Source: Catenisphaera adipataccumulans (GTDB taxonomy: Bacteria; Bacillota_I; Bacilli_A; Erysipelotrichales; Erysipelotrichaceae). From it: a stretch of 59,540 bases of DNA. The stretch is taken from contig NZ_JACHHK010000010.1 of the NCBI RefSeq assembly GCF_014202755.1, positions 1 to 59,540 on the forward strand. The letters run 5' to 3'. Each line of letters opens with the position of its first letter. The stretch's first letter is position 1. Below are positions 1,376-35,961 of the stretch, one piece after another. Below the pieces are notes generated by a model. It searched no databases, was not told the origin of the DNA, and saw nothing but the letters and a program-made list of their open reading frames with translations. A program made the translations under genes and the position numbers.

Positions 1376-2530
1376 ATGAAAGTATTAGTCGGTTTAAGCG
1401 GCGGCGTCGATTCTGCAGTAGCAGCTTATTTACTGAAAAAACAAGGATATGATGTGACCTGCTGCTTTATGCGCAACTGGGACAGTTACGCAAACAATGA
1501 TATTGCCGGCAATCCGACCATCTTCGATGATCAATGCCCGCAGGAGCAGGATTATGCCGATGCCAAAAAGGTCGCTGACCAGCTTGGCCTGCCGCTGCAG
1601 CGCGTCGACTATATCAAAGAATACTGGGATGACGTGTTCCAAACGTTTTTATCCGAATATAAAAAAGGCCGGACCCCAAACCCGGATATACTCTGTAATA
1701 AATACATCAAATTTGATAAATTCTATGAACGGGCAATGGATCTTGGTTTTGACTGTGTTGCCACCGGCCACTATGCGGATACGCTGACCAAAAACGGATT
1801 TACATATCTGACTCGCTCCAAGGATCAGAATAAAGATCAGACTTACTTTCTTTGCCAGGTTGGTGCAGAGAAATTTGCGCACACGCTTTTCCCGCTGGGT
1901 AAGATCGAAAAGCCGGAGGTCCGCCGCATTGCCGCAGAACTTCATCTGGAAAGCGTGGCCTCAAAAAAAGACAGTACAGGGATCTGCTTCATCGGTGAAC
2001 GAAATTTCCGCGAGTTTTTAAGCAATTACCTGCCTAGCCAGGAAGGAGATATTGTCGATGTGGATACAGGCAAGGTCATTGCCCGTCACATGGGGGTCCT
2101 TTACTATACGATCGGACAGCGCAAGGGCCTGAACATCAACCATATCAAAGGCCCATGGTTCGTTGTCGGCAAGGATGTGCAGAAAAACATTCTCTTTGTC
2201 TGCCATACTTCCCGCCGCAGCTGGCTGCACAGCGATGCCTGTCTGGTCAAAGATATCAACTGGCTGCTGCCGGATCAAAACGAGATTCCTGAGCACTGCA
2301 CGGCCAAGTTCCGCTATCGTCAGAAAGATCAGGACATTCAAATCGAACCAATCGATGAAACGTCTGCTCTGGTTCGATATCCGCAGACCGTCGCTTCAGT
2401 AACGGTCGGACAGGAAGCTGTGTTCTATGATGGCATGAAATGCATCGGCGGCGGAACGATCGAACAAGTATACCAGGACGGTGTTGATTTGAATGAAAAG
2501 ATCATTCAAGCCGGAGAGGTCCGATCTTGA
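1376..2530 (+). CDS. mnmA: tRNA-specific 2-thiouridylase MnmA
   Basis: MnmA thiolates U34 of the tRNAs for Lys, Glu and Gln, using ATP to adenylate the base and sulfur passed along from a cysteine desulfurase. The 384-residue length is normal. The PP-loop SGGVDS is at residues 8-13, the catalytic cysteine is Cys107 (in PDILCNKYIKF) and the second active-site cysteine is Cys204 (in TGICFIGERNF). The C-terminal beta-barrel region follows. The start is set by AAGGAGG 6 nt upstream. Its TGA overlaps the start of recD2 by 4 bp, so the two are translated as a coupled pair. Confidence 0.97.
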   Translation: MKVLVGLSGGVDSAVAAYLLKKQGYDVTCCFMRNWDSYANNDIAGNPTIFDDQCPQEQDYADAKKVADQLGLPLQRVDYIKEYWDDVFQTFLSEYKKGRTPNPDILCNKYIKFDKFYERAMDLGFDCVATGHYADTLTKNGFTYLTRSKDQNKDQTYFLCQVGAEKFAHTLFPLGKIEKPEVRRIAAELHLESVASKKDSTGICFIGERNFREFLSNYLPSQEGDIVDVDTGKVIARHMGVLYYTIGQRKGLNINHIKGPWFVVGKDVQKNILFVCHTSRRSWLHSDACLVKDINWLLPDQNEIPEHCTAKFRYRQKDQDIQIEPIDETSALVRYPQTVASVTVGQEAVFYDGMKCIGGGTIEQVYQDGVDLNEKIIQAGEVRS

Positions 2531-4635
2531 CTGAGATCATCAATGCCCGCCTTGATTATGTCATTTATGAACAGCCGCGCACCCATTATGTGGTTGCGCG
2601 TTTTGTCGATCTAAAAACACATCAGACATTCAAAGGCGCCGGCACGATGCCGGAGGCCGTCACCGACCGGGAATATGAACTCACCGGTGAATACATCGTA
2701 CATCGTCGTTATGGAGAACAGTTCAGCATCCATTCTGCCGTTCCGAAACTGCCGAGCATGAAGGATACCGTGATCCGTTTTCTGAGCAGTGCAGACTTTC
2801 CGAGCATCGGTCCGAAAACGGCAGAATCGATTGTCGATGCGCTGGGGGAAGACTGTTTGGCACAAATAAAAAAAGATCCCGGCTGCCTGAATGATGTCCC
2901 TTCTCTGTCGGCTTCGAAACGGGAGATCATCGCTGCCGGTATCCAAAACTTTGAAACATTCGATTCCACCTATGTTCAGTTGATGAACTACGGACTGACG
3001 CCGAATCAAATCGCCCTGCTGCAGGAAAACTACGAAAGTATCAAAGAAATACTGCATGAAGACTGCTTCATTCCTTTCTATGAAATCTACGGATTCGGTT
3101 ATAAATCTGCGTTGAAGATCGCCGACGGCATGGGGATGGAGAAAAACGATCTGCGCCGTCTGGACGCGATGGTTTTTGATCGGCTTCGCAATGAATCCAT
3201 GCGTACCGGTGATACCTATATTGCGATGGAAAAATTTCACCGTATGTTCCCTTATGATAACGAGCTGCTGGATGCCGCCTTGGAACGGCTGACACAATGG
3301 GACAGCATCGATGTCATCGGCCGCCGCATTTATCCATTCGGCTTGTACAGAGATGAAACGATCATCGCCCAGCAGCTGAAAGCACATATCTTTCCGGTCG
3401 AATCAACGGATGATGAAACCATGGATACATTGATCTCCGGTATTGAATTCGAAGCAGTGATCACTTTCGATGAAGTGCAGAAAGAAGCCATCCGTGCGTT
3501 TTTCCGTCATTCTCTGATGATCATCAACGGCGGACCAGGTACCGGCAAGACGACAACGGTACGCGGCATCCTGCAAATGTGCCGTACCCTGTTCCCAGAA
3601 TCAGTCGTGCAGTTGTGTGCACCGACCGGCCGTGCCAGCAAGCGTCTGTCCGCGCTGTCGGACTACGACAGCAAGACCATCCATTCATTGTTAAAATGGA
3701 ACAAAGATGACAATTCGTTTGCGGCCAATGAAGAGAATCCGCTTAATATTGATTTTTTGATCATTGACGAATGCAGCATGGTCGATACCCATTTATTTGC
3801 CTCCCTGATGCTTGCGCTGCCGCCGCGCTGCCGGATCCTGCTGATCGGCGATGAAGACCAGCTGGAAAGCGTCGGTCCGGGCAAGGTCTTCCAGGATATC
3901 ATTGAATCAGGGATCTGTCCGATCATGCACCTGAAAAAGATCTATCGTCAGGCGGCCGGCTCCGGCATCGTACAGTTAGCCAAAGATATCCGCCAGGAAC
4001 AGACATGCACCTATCAGGACGGTGTGGAACTGCTTGAAAAAAAGCCGGAAGATATCATTCCGACGATATTGGAAATAGCAGATCAAGATCCGGATATTCA
4101 AGTCCTCGCCCCAATGTACAAAGGCATCGAAGGCATTGATGCAGTCAACCGGGCGATGCAGGACCTGCTGAATCCAGCCGCATCAAATAAGCATGAATAC
4201 CGTATTGCCACAACGATATTCCGGGAAGGCGACAAAGTCATGCTTCTGAAGAACATGCCCGATGAGGATGTGTACAATGGTGACATCGGCATCATTGAAT
4301 ACATCGAAAAAGACAAAGGCAATGTCTTGATCGGCATTGATTTTCAAACCAAGATCGTGGAATTTGATGATGATTTCCTGATCTATCTGAAGCATGCCTG
4401 GTGCATTAGTATCCATAAAGCACAAGGCAGCGAATACCGCAGTGTCATCTGCGTCATTTCGCCGTACACTCGTTCGATGCTCAATAAGCGTCTGCTCTAT
4501 ACAGCCGTCAGCCGCGCCAAGCAGCAGCTTTATTTAGTCGGCAGCCGCGAAGTATTTGAAACACAGGTACGTATCAAACAGACGCATATCCGTCAAACCG
4601 GTTTATGTGAACGATTAAAATCCGCATCAGATTGA
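2527..4635 (+). CDS. recD2: RecD2-type ATP-dependent 5'-3' DNA helicase
   Basis: This is a stand-alone RecD-like superfamily 1B helicase, not part of RecBCD. The 702 residues start with an OB-like N-terminal region, then helix-hairpin-helix motifs (about 88-110 and 185-200). The motor has Walker A GGPGTGKTT (335-343), Walker B in FLIIDECSMVD, the GDEDQLESVGPG motif, and C-terminal motifs ISIHKAQGSE and LYTAVSRAK. The start is TTG, overlapping the mnmA stop by 4 bp, with GGAGAGG a few bases upstream. The stop codon lies inside the terminator shared with the convergent gene. In Firmicutes RecD2 has been linked to replication fork and repair functions. Confidence 0.95.
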   Translation: MTEIINARLDYVIYEQPRTHYVVARFVDLKTHQTFKGAGTMPEAVTDREYELTGEYIVHRRYGEQFSIHSAVPKLPSMKDTVIRFLSSADFPSIGPKTAESIVDALGEDCLAQIKKDPGCLNDVPSLSASKREIIAAGIQNFETFDSTYVQLMNYGLTPNQIALLQENYESIKEILHEDCFIPFYEIYGFGYKSALKIADGMGMEKNDLRRLDAMVFDRLRNESMRTGDTYIAMEKFHRMFPYDNELLDAALERLTQWDSIDVIGRRIYPFGLYRDETIIAQQLKAHIFPVESTDDETMDTLISGIEFEAVITFDEVQKEAIRAFFRHSLMIINGGPGTGKTTTVRGILQMCRTLFPESVVQLCAPTGRASKRLSALSDYDSKTIHSLLKWNKDDNSFAANEENPLNIDFLIIDECSMVDTHLFASLMLALPPRCRILLIGDEDQLESVGPGKVFQDIIESGICPIMHLKKIYRQAAGSGIVQLAKDIRQEQTCTYQDGVELLEKKPEDIIPTILEIADQDPDIQVLAPMYKGIEGIDAVNRAMQDLLNPAASNKHEYRIATTIFREGDKVMLLKNMPDEDVYNGDIGIIEYIEKDKGNVLIGIDFQTKIVEFDDDFLIYLKHAWCISIHKAQGSEYRSVICVISPYTRSMLNKRLLYTAVSRAKQQLYLVGSREVFETQVRIKQTHIRQTGLCERLKSASD

Positions 4636-19778: not shown

Positions 19779-19787
19779 TGGTATCAT
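19779..19787 (+). promoter_or_regulatory. Extended -10 promoter of tmcAL placed at the start codon
   Basis: TGG followed by TATCAT (19782-19787) is an extended -10 box. The ATG begins 6 nt after the hexamer, so the expected transcription start coincides with the A of the ATG, giving a leaderless mRNA. Confidence 0.55.
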
Positions 19788-19793
19788 GGAAAC

Positions 19794-20777
19794 ATGAAAT
19801 GCTGTGGGATCATCGCGGAATTCAATCCGTTTCATCAAGGCCATGCCTATATTATCCATGAAGCCAGACTTCGCAGCCGCTGCGACGCCTTAGCGGTCAT
19901 AACAACCAGTTATTATTCCCAACGCGGTCTGCCCTCTTTGATGTCTCCGGCAGCCAAAACCAAGGCTGCCCTGGCCAACGGTGCCGACCTGGTCCTGGAA
20001 CTGCCGTTTTGTTTCGGCACCCAGGGCGCGGAACAATTTGCCCGCTATGCGATGGAAGCCTTGCATCAGCTGCCGATCGATGCCCTTTGCTTCGGTTCTG
20101 AATCCGGTGATCCGGCTGCTTTGATGCAGCCGCCGAAACGGACGATCGATCCTAGCACAAGCTATCATCGTAATCAGGGATATCATTTACAGCCCAATGA
20201 TATTTTAGCATCCAATTATCTTATCCATTGTAAAAAAATGCATATCCGACCCATTATCGTTCAACGTGATCCGCGGTTTGAAAGTGCGACCGCCATTCGG
20301 GATGCTTTCTTAAACGGCACCCGGCCGGATGAGACATTTGATACCAATCAACGTTGGGAAGCGTACTATCCATATCTGCGCACGTATCTGCAGATGACAG
20401 ATGTGCAGACGTTATCTCGCTTTTTCATGGTCGACGAAGGCATCGAATCGCTGCTGAAAAAAAATGCAAGAGCCAAGACCTGGGAAGAATTTCTAGAACG
20501 CAGCGTCACCAAAAAATATACGAAAGCCCGTATCCGGCGGACATGTCTCTGGATCATGATGCAGATCACAAAAGCGCAGATGCAAAAGCACGGCCATTTT
20601 GATCAATTGATCCTTTTGGGGATGAACGAAACCGGCCGTCAGCTCGTGAAAAATCATCAGGCGATCTCCCGCTTTTCTCAGCTGGATCCCTTTCTGCAGG
20701 AAGTAGACTTAAAAAGCCGGATGCTTTACAATAGTGTACGACCCGACGAAACGAAACGGCAGGTGATCATTGTATGA
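19794..20777 (+). CDS. tmcAL: tRNA(Met) cytidine acetate ligase TmcAL
   Basis: TmcAL (YlbM, DUF795) activates acetate with ATP and acetylates C34 of elongator tRNA-Met. The 327 residues show the nucleotidyltransferase-type N-terminus IIAEFNPFHQGH and the SQRGLPSL and GADLVLELPF motifs. I choose the ATG at 19794, which starts the conserved MKCCGIIAEFNPFH; an in-frame ATG at 19749 would add 15 residues not typical of the family and would sit upstream of the -10 box. No real ribosome binding site is present (only GGAAAC). It overlaps the next gene by 4 bp. Confidence 0.9.
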   Translation: MKCCGIIAEFNPFHQGHAYIIHEARLRSRCDALAVITTSYYSQRGLPSLMSPAAKTKAALANGADLVLELPFCFGTQGAEQFARYAMEALHQLPIDALCFGSESGDPAALMQPPKRTIDPSTSYHRNQGYHLQPNDILASNYLIHCKKMHIRPIIVQRDPRFESATAIRDAFLNGTRPDETFDTNQRWEAYYPYLRTYLQMTDVQTLSRFFMVDEGIESLLKKNARAKTWEEFLERSVTKKYTKARIRRTCLWIMMQITKAQMQKHGHFDQLILLGMNETGRQLVKNHQAISRFSQLDPFLQEVDLKSRMLYNSVRPDETKRQVIIV

Positions 20778-24120: not shown

Positions 24121-25674
24121 TTAATGATAAATAATAGAATCAATCACAAACGTCATCTGGTCCTGACCGCGGTATTGACCAATCTGTGCCTGGCCGATCA
24201 AACTTTTGATTCGATTCAAGCTGGTCACTTTATCTTTCTCAGGCATATTGAAATTCATGCATTCCAACCCGTTTTCCAGTGTATAACGACGATGTTTGCC
24301 GTTTTGAATGTCGTAAATGGATTGAATCTGCGGTTCATCAATTTCAAACAGCGGGCATTCAAATCCTGGTCCGAACGGCCGCAGGACGTCCAGGCTGCGG
24401 ACGTTGGCTATGGTGCATTCCTCCGGCTGGATCGAAATAGCCTGCAGCGGTTCCGGCTGCCATTCATAACGGAAACTCTTCGCCCGGACAAAACGTCGGA
24501 ATGCATCGTAATCTTTTAAAAGGGTCGAGAATCCAGCGGCATGTTTATGTCCGCCGATGGCTTCATATCCATCAAAACCGTTCAAAAAATCCATACAATC
24601 AAAGCCTGACGGCGAACGCATGCTTGCCTTCAGGCCTTCCTGGTTCTGCGTCATGATGATCGCTGGTTTTTCATATTTGGCACAAAGTGAATTGGCGACC
24701 AATCCGATGATGCCTTCATGAAAACTAGGATCGTTGATCAAAATGACCGGATCGCCCGGGCTGCATTTTTGTTCCGAGAATTTGCACATCTGTTCGCTCA
24801 GACGCCTGCGGGTCTTATTGATGTCGTCGACCTGCATCGCAAAACGGCGGATCGTCTGCCGGTCATCGGTCAGAAAATAGCGGACAACGTTGTTGACGTT
24901 ACCTAAATTGCTCAGCCGCCCGACTGCATTGATCTTTGGTACTACTTGAAAGGCAATCGACGTTTCGTTCAGTTTCTTGTCACTGGCCAGTGCAAAAATA
25001 TGCGGCTCCTGGGTTTCATTGATCATCCGAACGCCCTGCTGGATCAAAGCCCGCGTTTCACCAATCACAGGCATGACATCTCCGATCGATGCCACGGCAG
25101 CAAGCATCAGATGCAAAGGGGCGTCCGCCTGCAACGCCCGGATGCATTCATAAGCGATGCCGGCTCCGCACAATGGATGAAAGTGCGTTTCCAGCACATC
25201 GGGATGTACCAATAAGTCACACGGCACATCGGCTTCGATCTTATGATGGTCGGTGACAATGGTCTGCATGCCGAGTTCCTTGGCATAATTCAGCGCATTG
25301 ACTGCTTTGACTCCGTTATCTACGGTAATGATCGTCGTATATCCTTTCTGAAAGGCTGCCTGGACCATATCTTCATTCAGGCCATATCCTTCCCGGATAC
25401 GGTCGGGAATATAGTATCCGCACTGGATGCCGAAGGCTTTCAGCCCGCTGTGCATGATCGTCGTCGCACAGATGCCGTCACAGTCATAGTCCCCGCCGAT
25501 GAAAACTTTTTCCTGGTTCTTTCTGGCGATATTCATTCGATTGACAAAATCGTCCATCGCTGATGTATGAGAAACCGGATACAGTTCCTGATCATCCATC
25601 CAGTAGGACCATTTTGATTCATCCGGTTCCATGGTTTTCAATATTTTTTTCGCAAAACTCGTTAAATTTTTCAT
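24121..25674 (-). CDS. recJ: Single-stranded-DNA exonuclease RecJ (short form)
   Basis: RecJ degrades 5' single strands in mismatch, base-excision and recombination repair. The 517 residues carry DHH motifs GGDYDCDG (60-67) and TDHHK (near 138), the DHHA1 region ending in GGHKHAAGFS, and an OB domain at the C-terminus. It is shorter than Bacillus RecJ (about 780), lacking the extra C-terminal domain. The start at 25674 has no binding site; a TATAAT box lies 6 nt upstream of the ATG, suggesting a leaderless mRNA. Confidence 0.9.
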   Translation of the reverse strand: MKNLTSFAKKILKTMEPDESKWSYWMDDQELYPVSHTSAMDDFVNRMNIARKNQEKVFIGGDYDCDGICATTIMHSGLKAFGIQCGYYIPDRIREGYGLNEDMVQAAFQKGYTTIITVDNGVKAVNALNYAKELGMQTIVTDHHKIEADVPCDLLVHPDVLETHFHPLCGAGIAYECIRALQADAPLHLMLAAVASIGDVMPVIGETRALIQQGVRMINETQEPHIFALASDKKLNETSIAFQVVPKINAVGRLSNLGNVNNVVRYFLTDDRQTIRRFAMQVDDINKTRRRLSEQMCKFSEQKCSPGDPVILINDPSFHEGIIGLVANSLCAKYEKPAIIMTQNQEGLKASMRSPSGFDCMDFLNGFDGYEAIGGHKHAAGFSTLLKDYDAFRRFVRAKSFRYEWQPEPLQAISIQPEECTIANVRSLDVLRPFGPGFECPLFEIDEPQIQSIYDIQNGKHRRYTLENGLECMNFNMPEKDKVTSLNRIKSLIGQAQIGQYRGQDQMTFVIDSIIYH

Positions 25675-30712: not shown

Positions 30713-33700
30713 TTATTCGGATTCATTTATTTCGATCGGGTCGATCTGATTCACAGAAATACTATTGGGATACTCACTGGTGATCCTTCCTTTGGTCAGA
30801 AGGATGGCGCCTTTCGTGATTTTCTCTTTTTCCCGCTCATAGATCCGCGGCATCAAAGCAGCATCGATCGTTCCTGATTCATCTTTGATCGTTAAAAAAC
30901 ACATCGTATTGCCTTGTTTTGTCGTATGTTCCCGGGAACGGACCACTTCTCCGATCACGCGGACATATCCGCGGAAATCCTCACAAGAACGGATACTGCG
31001 GCATTGATACCGTTTCCGCAGTTTTTGGATCGGGTGCTCCGTTAAATAGAAACCAAGAACATCATATTCACGTCTGGCCTTGTGCTGATCGTTTTCTTTG
31101 AGCGGTTTCAGCCGCGGCGGAGAAACTAGATCATACCGAAAGACGGCTCCTTGCTCCGTCGAGGTCGTCACTAAATCCGCATACGTCAGAACACTGTTTA
31201 AATTTTCCGGATCGCGCATCGTCTCCCGCGTCAAACCAAAGCAGTCCAGCGCACCGCCGTCGATCAGGCTCTCGATTTCTTTCTGCTCCAATTTCTGTGC
31301 CGAGACGCGGATCATAAAATCAATGTAATCTTTGAACGGTCCTTTTTCGCGTTCATTTAAAATAAGGGTATTTTCCTTTTCCCTGATGCCGCGGATCGCC
31401 GTCAGCGGCATGCGCAGGCCATTTTTCTCCGGCCGGTATCCGCTCTGCGAGCTTTGTACATCCGGGCCATAGATCTTCACATTCATTTTCCTGCACTCCG
31501 CGAGGATCTCTGCGATCTTTTTCCGGTTTGCCCCGTCTAGTAAATTGGCAAAAAAATACAGTGGATAATTTGCTTTCAAATAAGCCATTTGATAAGTGAT
31601 CATTCCATATGCATAACTGTGCGACTTATTAAATCCATAATCGGCAAAGCGGGCGATCCAATCAAAGATTTGTTCCGCTGTTTTCCGCGAACAATGATGA
31701 TGCGCTGCTCCCTCAATAAATGCTTCATGATACGACTGCATGACTTCCGGTTCCTTCTTGCTCATAGCACGGCGAAGCTGATCGGCCTGTTCCAATGAGA
31801 AACCAGCAATGACCTGGGCAATTTGCATGATTTGTTCCTGATACAAGATGATTCCGTAGGTTTCCTGCAGGATCGGTTTCAGCCGCGGATCAATATATTG
31901 GATGGCATCCGGATGACGGCGGTTTTCCATATACTGTGCCCGATTCTGCATCGGTCCCGGTCGGTACAACGCCAAAATCGTACTGATATCTTCAAAACAA
32001 GTCGGATGCAGTTGTTTCAGCAGATCCGAAATGCCTTCGCTTTCCAGCTGAAAAACGCCGATCGTATTTCCCTGTGCAAGCATTTGGTAGGTCTTTGCAT
32101 CATTGAGCGGCAGTTTGAGCGGATCAATGTGGATATGTTCATATTTTTCCAAATCCGTGATGATCGCATGGATCGTTGTTAGATTGTGAAGCGACAATAA
32201 ATCAAATTTGATCAGTCCCAGTTCTTCGAGATAGGCGGCTGAAAACTGCGTTGCATGCAGCGTATCGCCGATTTGTGCCAGCGGACAGACATTGATGATC
32301 GGCTGATCACTTAACACCACACCGGCCGCATGTGTCGACACATGACGCGGCAGCCCTTCGATGGCACAGGCACGCCGAAATAATAGATTGGTCTGCGCAT
32401 CATGCTGCACCATGCCGGCAAATGATCGATCTCTTTTCAGCATCTCCTGCAGCGTGGTTTCTTTCTTCGGCCAATGCGCGGTCAGTTCTTTCAGCTTCTG
32501 TACTGGATAATTCATCGCTTTGGCCGTATCATTCAGGGCTTTTTTCGCTTTTAAATTTGAATATGTGATGATCCTGGCCACATGATCGCTGCCATATTTT
32601 TGATCAAGATATTTAAACATTTCATCAATGCGGTCATCCGGAAAATCTGTATCGATATCCGGCTTGTTTTTCCGGCCGGCATTTAAGAAACGCTCAAAAA
32701 ACAAATGATTCTTGATCGGATCAACATGCGTGATCCCCATACAGTAGGCCACCAGCGATCCGGCAGCCGAACCGCGGCCCGGACCAACATAGATCCCGCG
32801 ATGACGCGCCTCCCGGATATAATCCCACACGATCAGGAAGTAATCCGTAAAATCATTTTGAACGATCACCTTCAGCTCATGATCCAGACGTTGGGCATAT
32901 TCCTCCGGTACTCGTCCGTTCATGCGTTTTTTTAGACCGGCCCGGCAGAGTGCACGCAGATAGGTGACATTATCGACCTGCTTCGGATTTTCAAAATGCG
33001 GGATCTCACTTTTAGGCATGCTCATCTGTACATTGCACATCGCTGCGATCCGATCGGTCTGCGCCAGATCATCCGCATCGTAAAGTTCATCCATCTCCTG
33101 GGCACTGCGATAATACCGCTGCCGTTTGACATCCAAAGACTGATCATCGATGGTCGTCCCTTTATCAATGGCCTGCAGCAGCCGCAGCGTCTCCATATCA
33201 TCCGGTTTTCGGTAATAAATACGAGAAAGAGCCACGGTCGGTATGGAAAGACTTTTCGCGATTTGTTTTAATTGTTTATTTTTTTCACGCCAGTATGCCG
33301 AATCATTCATGGCGATCGACACATAAAAATCCGGCCAGAGCGCAGCGCATTTTTGCAGGTAATTCCGCAGCATTGTTTCATTCTCATGATCCAGCCATTC
33401 CTGCATCGCATCCGAATCGCCGGAAGTCAGCACAACACACTCCTGTACGATATCGGCACATTCCGTCAAGGAAATGTTTTGCCCGCACTGCACCGCCGTG
33501 CTCATCCGATACAAGTTCTGAAGGCCGGCATCATTTTTTGCCAAAAACAGCAGATGCATGCGTTTTTCGTCATCTTTGGCAAGATTTTCATCGTACCGGA
33601 CATGAAATTCACAGCCGATGATCGGATGAATATTCTGTCGGCGGCATTCTTTATAAAAGGGCATGACACCGAACATATTGCCCTCATCAGTCAATGCAGC

Positions 33701-33799
33701 ATGACGGAATCCCATCTCTGCAGCCGCATCAACGATTTCTTTGATGCGGAACGGCGACTGAAGCAAGGAATAACAGCTTCTGGTATGTAAATGGTTCAT
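30713..33799 (-). CDS. dnaE: DNA polymerase III alpha subunit DnaE
   Basis: DnaE is the second replicative C-family polymerase of Firmicutes, working beside PolC in primer extension. The 1028 residues are shorter than E. coli DnaE (1160). An N-terminal PHP domain starts NHLHTRSCYSLL. The polymerase core has GPGRGSAAGSLVAYCMGI (339-356) and the metal ligands in PDIDTDFPDD (380-389), then YGFNKSHSYAYGMITYQMAY. An OB-fold at the C-terminus reads VRVIGEVVRSREHTTKQGN. The ATG at 33799 has no ribosome binding site and lies 6 nt after a TATCAT box. Confidence 0.95.
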   Translation of the reverse strand: MNHLHTRSCYSLLQSPFRIKEIVDAAAEMGFRHAALTDEGNMFGVMPFYKECRRQNIHPIIGCEFHVRYDENLAKDDEKRMHLLFLAKNDAGLQNLYRMSTAVQCGQNISLTECADIVQECVVLTSGDSDAMQEWLDHENETMLRNYLQKCAALWPDFYVSIAMNDSAYWREKNKQLKQIAKSLSIPTVALSRIYYRKPDDMETLRLLQAIDKGTTIDDQSLDVKRQRYYRSAQEMDELYDADDLAQTDRIAAMCNVQMSMPKSEIPHFENPKQVDNVTYLRALCRAGLKKRMNGRVPEEYAQRLDHELKVIVQNDFTDYFLIVWDYIREARHRGIYVGPGRGSAAGSLVAYCMGITHVDPIKNHLFFERFLNAGRKNKPDIDTDFPDDRIDEMFKYLDQKYGSDHVARIITYSNLKAKKALNDTAKAMNYPVQKLKELTAHWPKKETTLQEMLKRDRSFAGMVQHDAQTNLLFRRACAIEGLPRHVSTHAAGVVLSDQPIINVCPLAQIGDTLHATQFSAAYLEELGLIKFDLLSLHNLTTIHAIITDLEKYEHIHIDPLKLPLNDAKTYQMLAQGNTIGVFQLESEGISDLLKQLHPTCFEDISTILALYRPGPMQNRAQYMENRRHPDAIQYIDPRLKPILQETYGIILYQEQIMQIAQVIAGFSLEQADQLRRAMSKKEPEVMQSYHEAFIEGAAHHHCSRKTAEQIFDWIARFADYGFNKSHSYAYGMITYQMAYLKANYPLYFFANLLDGANRKKIAEILAECRKMNVKIYGPDVQSSQSGYRPEKNGLRMPLTAIRGIREKENTLILNEREKGPFKDYIDFMIRVSAQKLEQKEIESLIDGGALDCFGLTRETMRDPENLNSVLTYADLVTTSTEQGAVFRYDLVSPPRLKPLKENDQHKARREYDVLGFYLTEHPIQKLRKRYQCRSIRSCEDFRGYVRVIGEVVRSREHTTKQGNTMCFLTIKDESGTIDAALMPRIYEREKEKITKGAILLTKGRITSEYPNSISVNQIDPIEINESE

Positions 33800-33805
33800 A
33801 CATTA

Positions 33806-33814
33806 ATGATAGCA
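33806..33814 (-). promoter_or_regulatory. Extended -10 promoter of dnaE at the start codon
   Basis: On the minus strand TGC then TATCAT (33806-33811), followed by 6 nt and the dnaE ATG. Predicted transcription begins at or next to the start codon. The box directly follows the nrnA terminator. Confidence 0.58.
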
Positions 33815-33815
33815 C

Positions 33816-33847
33816 AAAAAAGCGAAGCTATTGTAAACTTCGCTTTT
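33816..33847 (-). terminator. Terminator of the smc-to-nrnA operon
   Basis: AAAAGCGAAG (33818-33827) pairs with CTTCGCTTTT (33838-33847); six U follow on the minus strand. The nrnA stop codon (33828-33830) is in the loop. Confidence 0.88.
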
Positions 33848-34760
33848 CCAACAAATTCACGATTTCATCCACTTCTTCGCGTGTCAAATTTTTGATCCCG
33901 CTGGCACAATCATGACCGCCGCCATGATACTGTACGGCAATATCCCGGATCGGGATCAACTTGCTGCGCAGCGATGCACTATAGTGGACCCCATCTTCCA
34001 TTCGGGTAAATAAAGCCCAAACGGTGATGCCGCGTACACCGCTGAGCGCATAGACCTTTTCTTTGGCTGAGGAAAATGTCTGCTCACAGCTTTGGTAGAC
34101 ATCCGGCTCCATGATCGCATAAAGCATCTTTTCTCTACGATGCGAATGAATACGTACCTGTGCCTCATAGCGGTAATCCGCATAGGAACCGGTAAAATTG
34201 ATTTGTTCACAAGCCATGATGTCAGCGCCCTGCTCCAGCAGATATGCACCAGCCATCAACGACTGCGGCCGGACCGTTTTGATCGTAAACCGGATCGAAT
34301 CAGCAATCAGCCCATCGTAAAACAATTCCGCACTGACTTTCGGCAGTGAAACCTGCGCTTTCCGGCAAGCATCGGCAAGGATCTCACAAGTCGCACAAGC
34401 CTTTTCGTCGATCCATTCCAGATCACAGAATTTTTCTTGATGAATGTGATGATCGATCTGAATTTTAAAAGGAGCTTTCAAAAAACGCTGATCATCGACA
34501 CGGGCCGCATTTGATGTATCTAGGACCACCGCTGCAGACTTTGCCAGCTCATCATCCGAAATAGAATCTGAATGATCAATAAACTGAGCTGCTAAACCAC
34601 TCATTTCCCCGAGCACGTAAATCTGCTTTTCTGGGAAAATCTGCTCCAATAAGAACTTCATGCCCAGCTGTGATCCGATCGCATCCATATCCGGAAATTC
34701 ATGCCGGAACAAAAGAATATTCGGATACGGCTGCAGCGCGGCTATGATCTTATTCCACAT
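33828..34760 (-). CDS. nrnA: Bifunctional oligoribonuclease / pAp phosphatase NrnA
   Basis: NrnA degrades 2-5 nt RNA fragments and hydrolyses 3'-phosphoadenosine 5'-phosphate. The 310 residues show the DHH-DHHA1 layout: RHEFPDMDAIGSQ near the N-terminus, VVLDTSN, the IDHH motif (QIDHHIHQEKF), and the C-terminal HGGGHDCASG. The start at 34760 lies 11 bp inside the end of ackA, indicating translational coupling; the binding site is weak. It is the last gene of its operon. Confidence 0.92.
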   Translation of the reverse strand: MWNKIIAALQPYPNILLFRHEFPDMDAIGSQLGMKFLLEQIFPEKQIYVLGEMSGLAAQFIDHSDSISDDELAKSAAVVLDTSNAARVDDQRFLKAPFKIQIDHHIHQEKFCDLEWIDEKACATCEILADACRKAQVSLPKVSAELFYDGLIADSIRFTIKTVRPQSLMAGAYLLEQGADIMACEQINFTGSYADYRYEAQVRIHSHRREKMLYAIMEPDVYQSCEQTFSSAKEKVYALSGVRGITVWALFTRMEDGVHYSASLRSKLIPIRDIAVQYHGGGHDCASGIKNLTREEVDEIVNLLEKRSLQ

Positions 34761-35961
34761 TGTGCTCGTGCTTCCAGACCTTATAAGCATCTCGGGCGAT
34801 CATCAATTCCTCATTGGTCGGAATGACATATACTTTCATCTTCGACTCATCCGTACTGATCAAGCCTTCCCGTCCGCGCATTTCTTTATTGCGCTGATCA
34901 GAGAACTCGACGCCGATGCATTTCAGACGCTTGCACACATTTCGGCGGATAAAATCGCTGTTTTCACCGATACCAGCTGTAAACACGATGGCATCCGCAC
35001 CGCCCATCAAGCCATAATAACCGGCAATGGTCTCAACAACGCGCGAAACATAGATATCAAACGTCAGGATAGCACGCTTGTTGCCGTCGCGGGCAGCCGC
35101 TTCGACATCACGGGTATCACTGGAAATACCGCTGATGCCTAAGACACCGGATTTCTTGTTCAGAACATCGTCCAATTCATCCGGTGTATAGTGATATTTC
35201 CGGAATAAATAAACAATGATTGCCGGGTCAATATCGCCGCAGCGTGTTCCCATCATAATTCCGCCCAACGGTGTAAAGCCCATCGAGATCTTAAAAGCCC
35301 GGCCGTTCTTGACTGCTGCGATGCTTGCACCGCCGCCCAGGTGGCATGTGATGATGTTCATTTCATCGATCGGTTTGTTCTGGATCTCTGCCAGACGGTG
35401 CGTCAAGTATTTATGACTGGTTCCATGGGCACCATAACGGCGGATCTTATCCGTCAGATACATCTCATATGGCAGCGGATAAATATAGTTTTCCGGCGGC
35501 ATCGTCTGGAAAAAGGCCGTATCGAAGACAAACGTATGCACACAATCCGGCAGTGCATCCGCAAACGCACGGTAGCCCACCAAGGCAGCCGGATTATGCA
35601 GCGGCGCCAAAGCTGCCAGTTCGTCTACTTTCGAAACAACATCTTCGTCCACTTTGACCGAATGATCAAAGTAGCTGCCGCCCTGTACGATCCGGTGACC
35701 GATCGCATCAATATCATTCAGATCATTGACGATCTTCAGTTCCATCAGCTTATCCATCAAAATTTTGACCGCTTCGCCATGATTGGCAATATGCTGTGTT
35801 TCTTTTAATTTTTTTCCATTGACTGTAATACCAAAAATAGAATCTTCCAATCCAATACGTTCAATGTTTCCCTGTGTCAGTACTTCTTCTTCCGGCATGC
35901 GGAACACTTGGAATTTCAACGACGAACTGCCCGCGTTGACACTCATAACAATCGTAGACAT
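34750..35961 (-). CDS. ackA: Acetate kinase
   Basis: AckA converts acetyl phosphate and ADP to acetate and ATP, the energy-yielding end of fermentation. The 403 residues show MSVNAGSSSLKFQVF at the N-terminus, the HRIVQGG, TCHLGGGASIAAVKNG and FTAGIGENS motifs. AGGAGG lies 6 nt before the ATG. It directly follows ylxM (9-bp gap) in an otherwise secretion and chromosome operon; pta is not in the window. Confidence 0.96.
   Translation of the reverse strand: MSTIVMSVNAGSSSLKFQVFRMPEEEVLTQGNIERIGLEDSIFGITVNGKKLKETQHIANHGEAVKILMDKLMELKIVNDLNDIDAIGHRIVQGGSYFDHSVKVDEDVVSKVDELAALAPLHNPAALVGYRAFADALPDCVHTFVFDTAFFQTMPPENYIYPLPYEMYLTDKIRRYGAHGTSHKYLTHRLAEIQNKPIDEMNIITCHLGGGASIAAVKNGRAFKISMGFTPLGGIMMGTRCGDIDPAIIVYLFRKYHYTPDELDDVLNKKSGVLGISGISSDTRDVEAAARDGNKRAILTFDIYVSRVVETIAGYYGLMGGADAIVFTAGIGENSDFIRRNVCKRLKCIGVEFSDQRNKEMRGREGLISTDESKMKVYVIPTNEELMIARDAYKVWKHEHNVE

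Follow-up and report, generated by a model that had tools for sequence, protein, structure and literature searches.

Predicted leaderless start of dnaE in Catenisphaera adipataccumulans and its recurrence within the Erysipelotrichaceae

Our analysis of a 59,540-nt stretch of the Catenisphaera adipataccumulans genome (hereafter, the window) indicates that dnaE, encoding the alpha subunit of DNA polymerase III, is very probably expressed from its own extended -10 promoter as an mRNA that would begin at the A of the ATG and be translated independently of a Shine-Dalgarno (SD) sequence, with transcripts of the preceding gene, nrnA, terminating at a hairpin next to this promoter. The features of this region, in minus-strand order, are as follows.

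33828..34790, minus strand: nrnA-like phosphoesterase gene (NF053633 NrnA, E = 8e-48, below the equivalog cut-off)
33816..33849, minus strand: predicted intrinsic terminator of nrnA (hairpin and U-tract), abutting the extended -10 element; found by folding and missed by the rules of the scanner
33812..33816, minus strand: extended -10 element TGTGC (TGC at 33814-33812); a TGTGn context is also found in the leaderless relatives L033, L051 and L055
33806..33811, minus strand: -10 hexamer TATCAT, a 5/6 match to TATAAT
33800..33805, minus strand: 6-nt gap TAATGT between the -10 hexamer and the dnaE ATG, with a pyrimidine at -1
33797..33799, minus strand: dnaE ATG, predicted also to be the mRNA 5' end (A = +1), 6 nt past the -10 hexamer, with an in-frame TAA at -6 and a conserved N-terminus
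30713..33799, minus strand: dnaE, DNA polymerase III alpha subunit (DnaE type), 1028 aa (TIGR00594, E = 6.3e-279, above the superfamily cut-off)

The minus strand around the dnaE start reads GGAAAAGCGAAGTTTACAATAGCTTCGCTTTTTTGTGCTATCATTAATGTATGAACCATTTACAT. The hairpin AAAAGCGAAG-TTTACAATAG-CTTCGCTTTTTT is followed by GTGC-TATCAT-TAATGT-ATG AAC CAT, and the U-tract of the nrnA terminator passes directly into the GTGC that precedes TATCAT. A preliminary description of this DNA had reported TGC-TATCAT, 6 nt and ATG without an SD, directly past the nrnA terminator, and the minus strand reads exactly so. There is no SD upstream of the dnaE ATG and no room for one, and the ATG begins at the 7th base past the hexamer. 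No match to a -35 element was found for this promoter; the hexamer is preceded by TGn (TGC-TATCAT), the context in which a -35 is dispensable, and the TGTGC type is the extended -10 of Gram-positive bacteria. On the minus strand a simple scanner missed the terminator and called no -35/-10 pair, which reflects its rules, since the promoter has no -35 match and the U-tract of the terminator pairs into the stem.

The position of the start codon is well constrained. The reading frame 5' of the ATG is closed by the TAA at 6 nt, and the DnaE N-terminus (MNHLHTRSCYS) is conserved, with M1, H3, L4, H5, S8 and Y10 invariant in 13 aligned relatives; because of these two features, the ATG at 33797-33799 is the only plausible start of dnaE. 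Translation would begin at this AUG at the very 5' end of the mRNA, with the conserved N-terminus of the PHP domain immediately after it. The nrnA terminator hairpin has a folding energy of -17.5 kcal/mol (z = -4.1), and none of 200 shuffled sequences was equally stable. In this hairpin, the junction of loop and 3' arm is occupied by the nrnA stop codon, TAG (33830-33828). Since the stop codon is inside the hairpin, the 5' arm is coding sequence.

The same arrangement recurs among relatives. A dnaE match was present in 112 of 115 Erysipelotrichaceae genomes, many of which are metagenome assemblies, and 90 dnaE genes from the family were compared, with leaderless or led status and SD calls assigned by simple motif rules; the genus of the Catenisphaera genome has no other members in this sample. 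Leaderless dnaE genes, defined by a -10 box 6 or 7 nt from the ATG and no SD, made up 30 of the 90 (28 at 6 nt and 2 at 7 nt). TATAAT-like hexamers stood at 6 nt in 26/90 genes, at 7 nt in 2 and at 8-10 nt in none, with the rest mostly at 15-30 nt; in two more genes the box at 6 nt was a 4/6 match accompanied by TG. An SD was found in 51 of the 60 led genes, in which the -10 box is mostly 15-30 nt away, versus 0/30 leaderless genes (p=3e-16), and none of the nine genes that start with GTG or TTG had a -10 at 6 or 7 nt. Within the leaderless genes the six bases between hexamer and ATG vary, while the hexamer, the distance and the ATG are constant. When the upstream sequences were shuffled (500 shuffles), a mean of 1.94 of the 90 genes, and at most 7, had a hexamer at 6 or 7 nt, versus 28 observed under the same rule, so that the geometry is expected by chance in about 2% of genes. 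These shuffles and the N8 control pattern described below rule out chance as its cause.

T or C occupied position -1, which played no part in gene selection, in every one of the 28 leaderless dnaE genes with 6-nt spacing and in 29/29 leaderless genes of the Catenisphaera genome, versus 46/60 led dnaE genes (p=5e-5 for the pooled leaderless genes against the led ones). Bacterial RNA polymerase prefers to start at a purine preceded by a pyrimidine (Y(-1)R(+1)), and this preference together with the pyrimidine at -1 points to a start of transcription at the A of the ATG. Thus the earlier proposal that dnaE is leaderless is well supported in silico by the spacing, the AUG, the absence of an SD, the pyrimidine at -1 and the recurrence in relatives.

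On a tree of the DnaE proteins, the distribution of the leaderless state corresponded to about 10 changes by parsimony, at least 4 of them forced by well-supported branches, suggesting repeated gain or loss of the leaderless start during the history of the family. The state was nevertheless clustered (0/500 shuffles gave a value as low), which argues that it is kept inside clades, and one clade of ten genomes is entirely leaderless, with the state held through long branches. Floccifex porci dnaE is leaderless (7 nt). The SD-led dnaE genes of Faecalitalea cylindroides, Holdemanella biformis and Faecalicoccus acidiformans show that leaderlessness is not required. No leaderless dnaE was found among the Bacillales, Lactobacillales and Clostridia of the set of named genomes.

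Two further genes of the window have the same type of start.

24121..25674, minus strand: recJ (DHH, DHHA1 and RecJ_OB domains), the second leaderless gene of the window, with TATAAT at 25686-25681, GTCGGT and ATG
19794..20777, plus strand: tmcAL-like gene for a HIGH nucleotidyltransferase (tRNA metabolism; PF05636, E=1.4e-66), the third leaderless gene of the window, with TGG-TATCAT at 19779-19787, 6 nt and ATG

A survey of 860 kb of stretches, about 43% of the Catenisphaera genome, showed that such starts are not confined to this window. The pattern TGNTANNAT followed by an ATG opening an ORF of at least 80 aa occurred 22 times at 6 nt and 6 times at 7 nt, with none at 5 or 8 nt and about 4 elsewhere. 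TATAAT alone gave a similar profile (18 at 6 nt, 3 at 7 nt, 0 at 5 and 0 at 8), and neither GTG nor TTG gave a peak at 6 nt in the same 860 kb. In total, about 38 leaderless candidates were identified, along with 64 genes that combine a good extended -10 with an SD leader. Furthermore, in 110 family genomes the pattern TGNTATAAT-N6-ATG had 1026 matches, versus 486 for the N8 control and 124 for the reversed N6 pattern; N6 matches outnumbered N8 matches in 79 genomes and were fewer in 16 (Wilcoxon p=1.5e-12). Besides the tmcAL-like gene, the leaderless set includes other tRNA and rRNA genes, namely those for a CCA-adding-type enzyme, tilS, a SpoU methylase and ybeY. A gene for a PolyA_pol/CCA-type enzyme and rmuC, 4.3 kb apart, have near-identical upstream sequences (L080:1170-1217 and L080:5455-5502), each a terminator-like hairpin followed by TGGTATAATGTTT(C/T)C-ATG, as though this unit of terminator and promoter had been copied.

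We propose that nrnA transcripts end at the hairpin, so that dnaE would be expressed as its own unit, and that the extended -10 promoter TGTGC-TATCAT drives dnaE transcription; a recognizable -35 would be missing because the nrnA terminator occupies that space. RNA polymerase would start at its usual distance from the hexamer, the 7th base, where the A of the ATG stands, yielding an mRNA that begins 5'-AUG, and ribosomes would start on this terminal AUG without SD contact. In other bacteria leaderless mRNAs are started largely by 70S ribosomes (review PMC9031893), and we infer initiation of the same type for dnaE. Because its hexamer matches the consensus at five of six positions and it lacks a -35, this promoter may have low activity, and leadered dnaE transcripts may also arise by read-through from nrnA. 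Starts of this kind, of which the genome has several dozen, probably arise where terminators and extended -10 promoters crowd very short intergenic regions.

Concerning the origin of these starts, we give an even chance to the idea that the compactness of intergenic regions produces leaderlessness as a side effect that is merely tolerated, a reading compatible with a leaderless dnaE expressed as proposed above. An extended -10 right past a terminator can sit against an ATG, and in the Catenisphaera genome the upstream neighbor was nearer to leaderless genes (median 55 versus 101 nt, p=0.0014) and a terminator-like element lay upstream of 16/38 leaderless genes versus 9/64 (p=0.002). Within the family, however, upstream terminators were not more common for leaderless dnaE genes (11/29 versus 32/60, p=0.18), and the persistence of the state in the all-leaderless clade of ten suggests selection, a hint of more than tolerance. 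A fusion of terminator and promoter as a constant feature of leaderless dnaE is not supported, as only those 11 of 29 genes have an upstream terminator.

It is improbable that most dnaE expression stems from a more distal upstream promoter or from transcripts that continue out of nrnA, with the -10-like box being minor or fortuitous. The two genes lie in the same direction with dnaE downstream, and the 5' arm of the terminator lies within the last nrnA codons, so ribosomes could melt the hairpin; because the stop codon is within the hairpin, the efficiency of termination would vary with the distance between polymerase and ribosome, and the terminator could be weakened by a ribosome that follows close behind. 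Nevertheless, the hairpin is strong and carries a U-tract, and the leaderless geometry is seen in 30/90 relatives, with a strict spacing of 6-7 nt. An mRNA reading through from nrnA would also lack an SD, would have another AUG, out of frame, 4 nt before the start, and would be expected to be poorly translated.

We give similarly little credence to a stress regulon in which the leaderless mRNAs of DNA-metabolism genes would act as a coordinated group and still be translated when SD-dependent initiation falls. The genes concerned are those leaderless in the Catenisphaera genome: dnaE, recJ, dinB, mutY, rmuC and an AddB-like PD-(D/E)XK nuclease gene. The preliminary description had grouped recJ, and possibly dprA, with dnaE. 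For recJ this was supported, its TATAAT, 6 nt and ATG being the arrangement of dnaE; for dprA it did not hold, as the closest box, TATATC, leaves a gap of 5 nt. In the family, recJ was leaderless in 6/29 genomes, all within a close group, and dinB in 5/18, a count that leaves out one weak case, L307. The recJ of genome G021, with TATAAT 8 nt from the ATG, was left out of the recJ count. The rates for dnaE, recJ and dinB represent a biased sample because these genes were chosen as leaderless in the Catenisphaera genome. A greater relative frequency of leaderless genes in information categories, given in the portion of Zheng et al. 2011 (PMC3160421) available to us, also favors such a regulon.

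However, in a comparison based on Pfam annotation of one genome and a small sample, DNA functions accounted for 6/38 leaderless genes versus 2/37 annotated promoter-matched SD-led genes (p=0.26), and DNA plus RNA processing for 12/38 versus 5/37 (p=0.10). The two SD-led DNA genes of the Catenisphaera genome are gyrB and that for the Pol III delta subunit, and the leaderless genes are mostly of unrelated functions (patatin, GH25, sortase, HAD, ATPase and others). Furthermore, among a handful of control genes in the family the leaderless state was absent: 0/29 for recA, 0/30 for polA, 0/29 for ackA and 0/26 for glyA after false matches were removed by eye, with all 29 recA and 30 polA genes SD-led. 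The discarded matches (2 for recA, 1 for glyA and 4 for polA) mostly reflected an SD at a neighboring start, either GGAGGA immediately past the supposed ATG or GGAGG preceding another ATG further upstream, and one polA match was internal. These results do not support the earlier suggestion of a general class of leaderless DNA-metabolism genes. Clearly, gene identity matters and dnaE is unusual, and membership in the DNA-metabolism category does not predict the leaderless state. Because the sample is small, a narrower leaderless set comprising the six genes named above is possible. We likewise doubt strongly that the leaderless dnaE start is selectively kept as a translational switch, with DnaE, RecJ, DinB, MutY, RmuC and the AddB-like nuclease still being translated by 70S/leaderless initiation when stress lowers SD-dependent initiation; the best-known stress version, ribosomes made by MazF in E. 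coli, was not reproduced by other groups (review PMC9031893).

The start predicted for dnaE is of a known kind, occurring in streptococci and mycoplasmas, in a family for which our literature search found no paper on leaderless genes or on leaderless dnaE. According to the portion of Zheng et al. 2011 (PMC3160421) available to us, leaderless genes of the TA-led type occur in 56 of the 209 genomes of Firmicutes (mean 4.2%), mostly in members of the Lactobacillales and in Mycoplasma, and share with the dnaE start a -10-like TANNNT about 12 nt (from the first T) upstream of the start codon, the lack of an SD and, in low-GC Firmicutes, a TG that often precedes the signal; that portion mentions neither Erysipelotrichaceae nor dnaE. 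In streptococci, about 8-9% of mRNAs mapped by dRNA-seq are leaderless (PMC4448216, PMC6431027). The mapped leaderless mRNAs of S. agalactiae all start with AUG and 90% begin at the A (PMC4448216), which is the geometry predicted for dnaE and supports its leaderless start. Of the leaderless mRNAs of S. pyogenes, 81% are leaderless in S. agalactiae too (PMC6431027), and holA, encoding the Pol III delta subunit, is leaderless in S. agalactiae (PMC4448216, PMC6431027). The streptococcal cases were mapped experimentally, whereas those of the Erysipelotrichaceae are predicted from sequence; they also belong to another clade, and the gene here is that for the polymerase alpha subunit, with a state that switches among genera. 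The dnaE promoter shares TGTGC-TATCAT and the lack of a -35 match with extended -10 (TGn / TRTG) sigma-A promoters, with the difference that it abuts both an upstream terminator and the start codon.

These results add a low-GC Gram-positive family to those with many predicted leaderless genes. Orthologous dnaE genes with or without an SD leader in related genera constitute a natural experiment, a contrast that allows a direct test of what a replication gene gains or loses by leaderless initiation. Start-site callers that rely on the SD may misplace leaderless genes.

Finally, a palindrome, ACTTGAA-N5-TTCAAGT, was observed upstream of dinB in many family genomes (L308 and also L310, L311, L313, L314, L315, L316 and L319), often in two copies about 28 bp apart. 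In L308 (dinB at 1486-2748, minus strand; divergent gene at 2796-3437, plus strand) and L310, it lies between dinB and a divergent gene whose translation resembles an HTH plus LexA-like (S24) repressor. The palindrome could represent an operator of the SOS type that differs from the Bacillus box.
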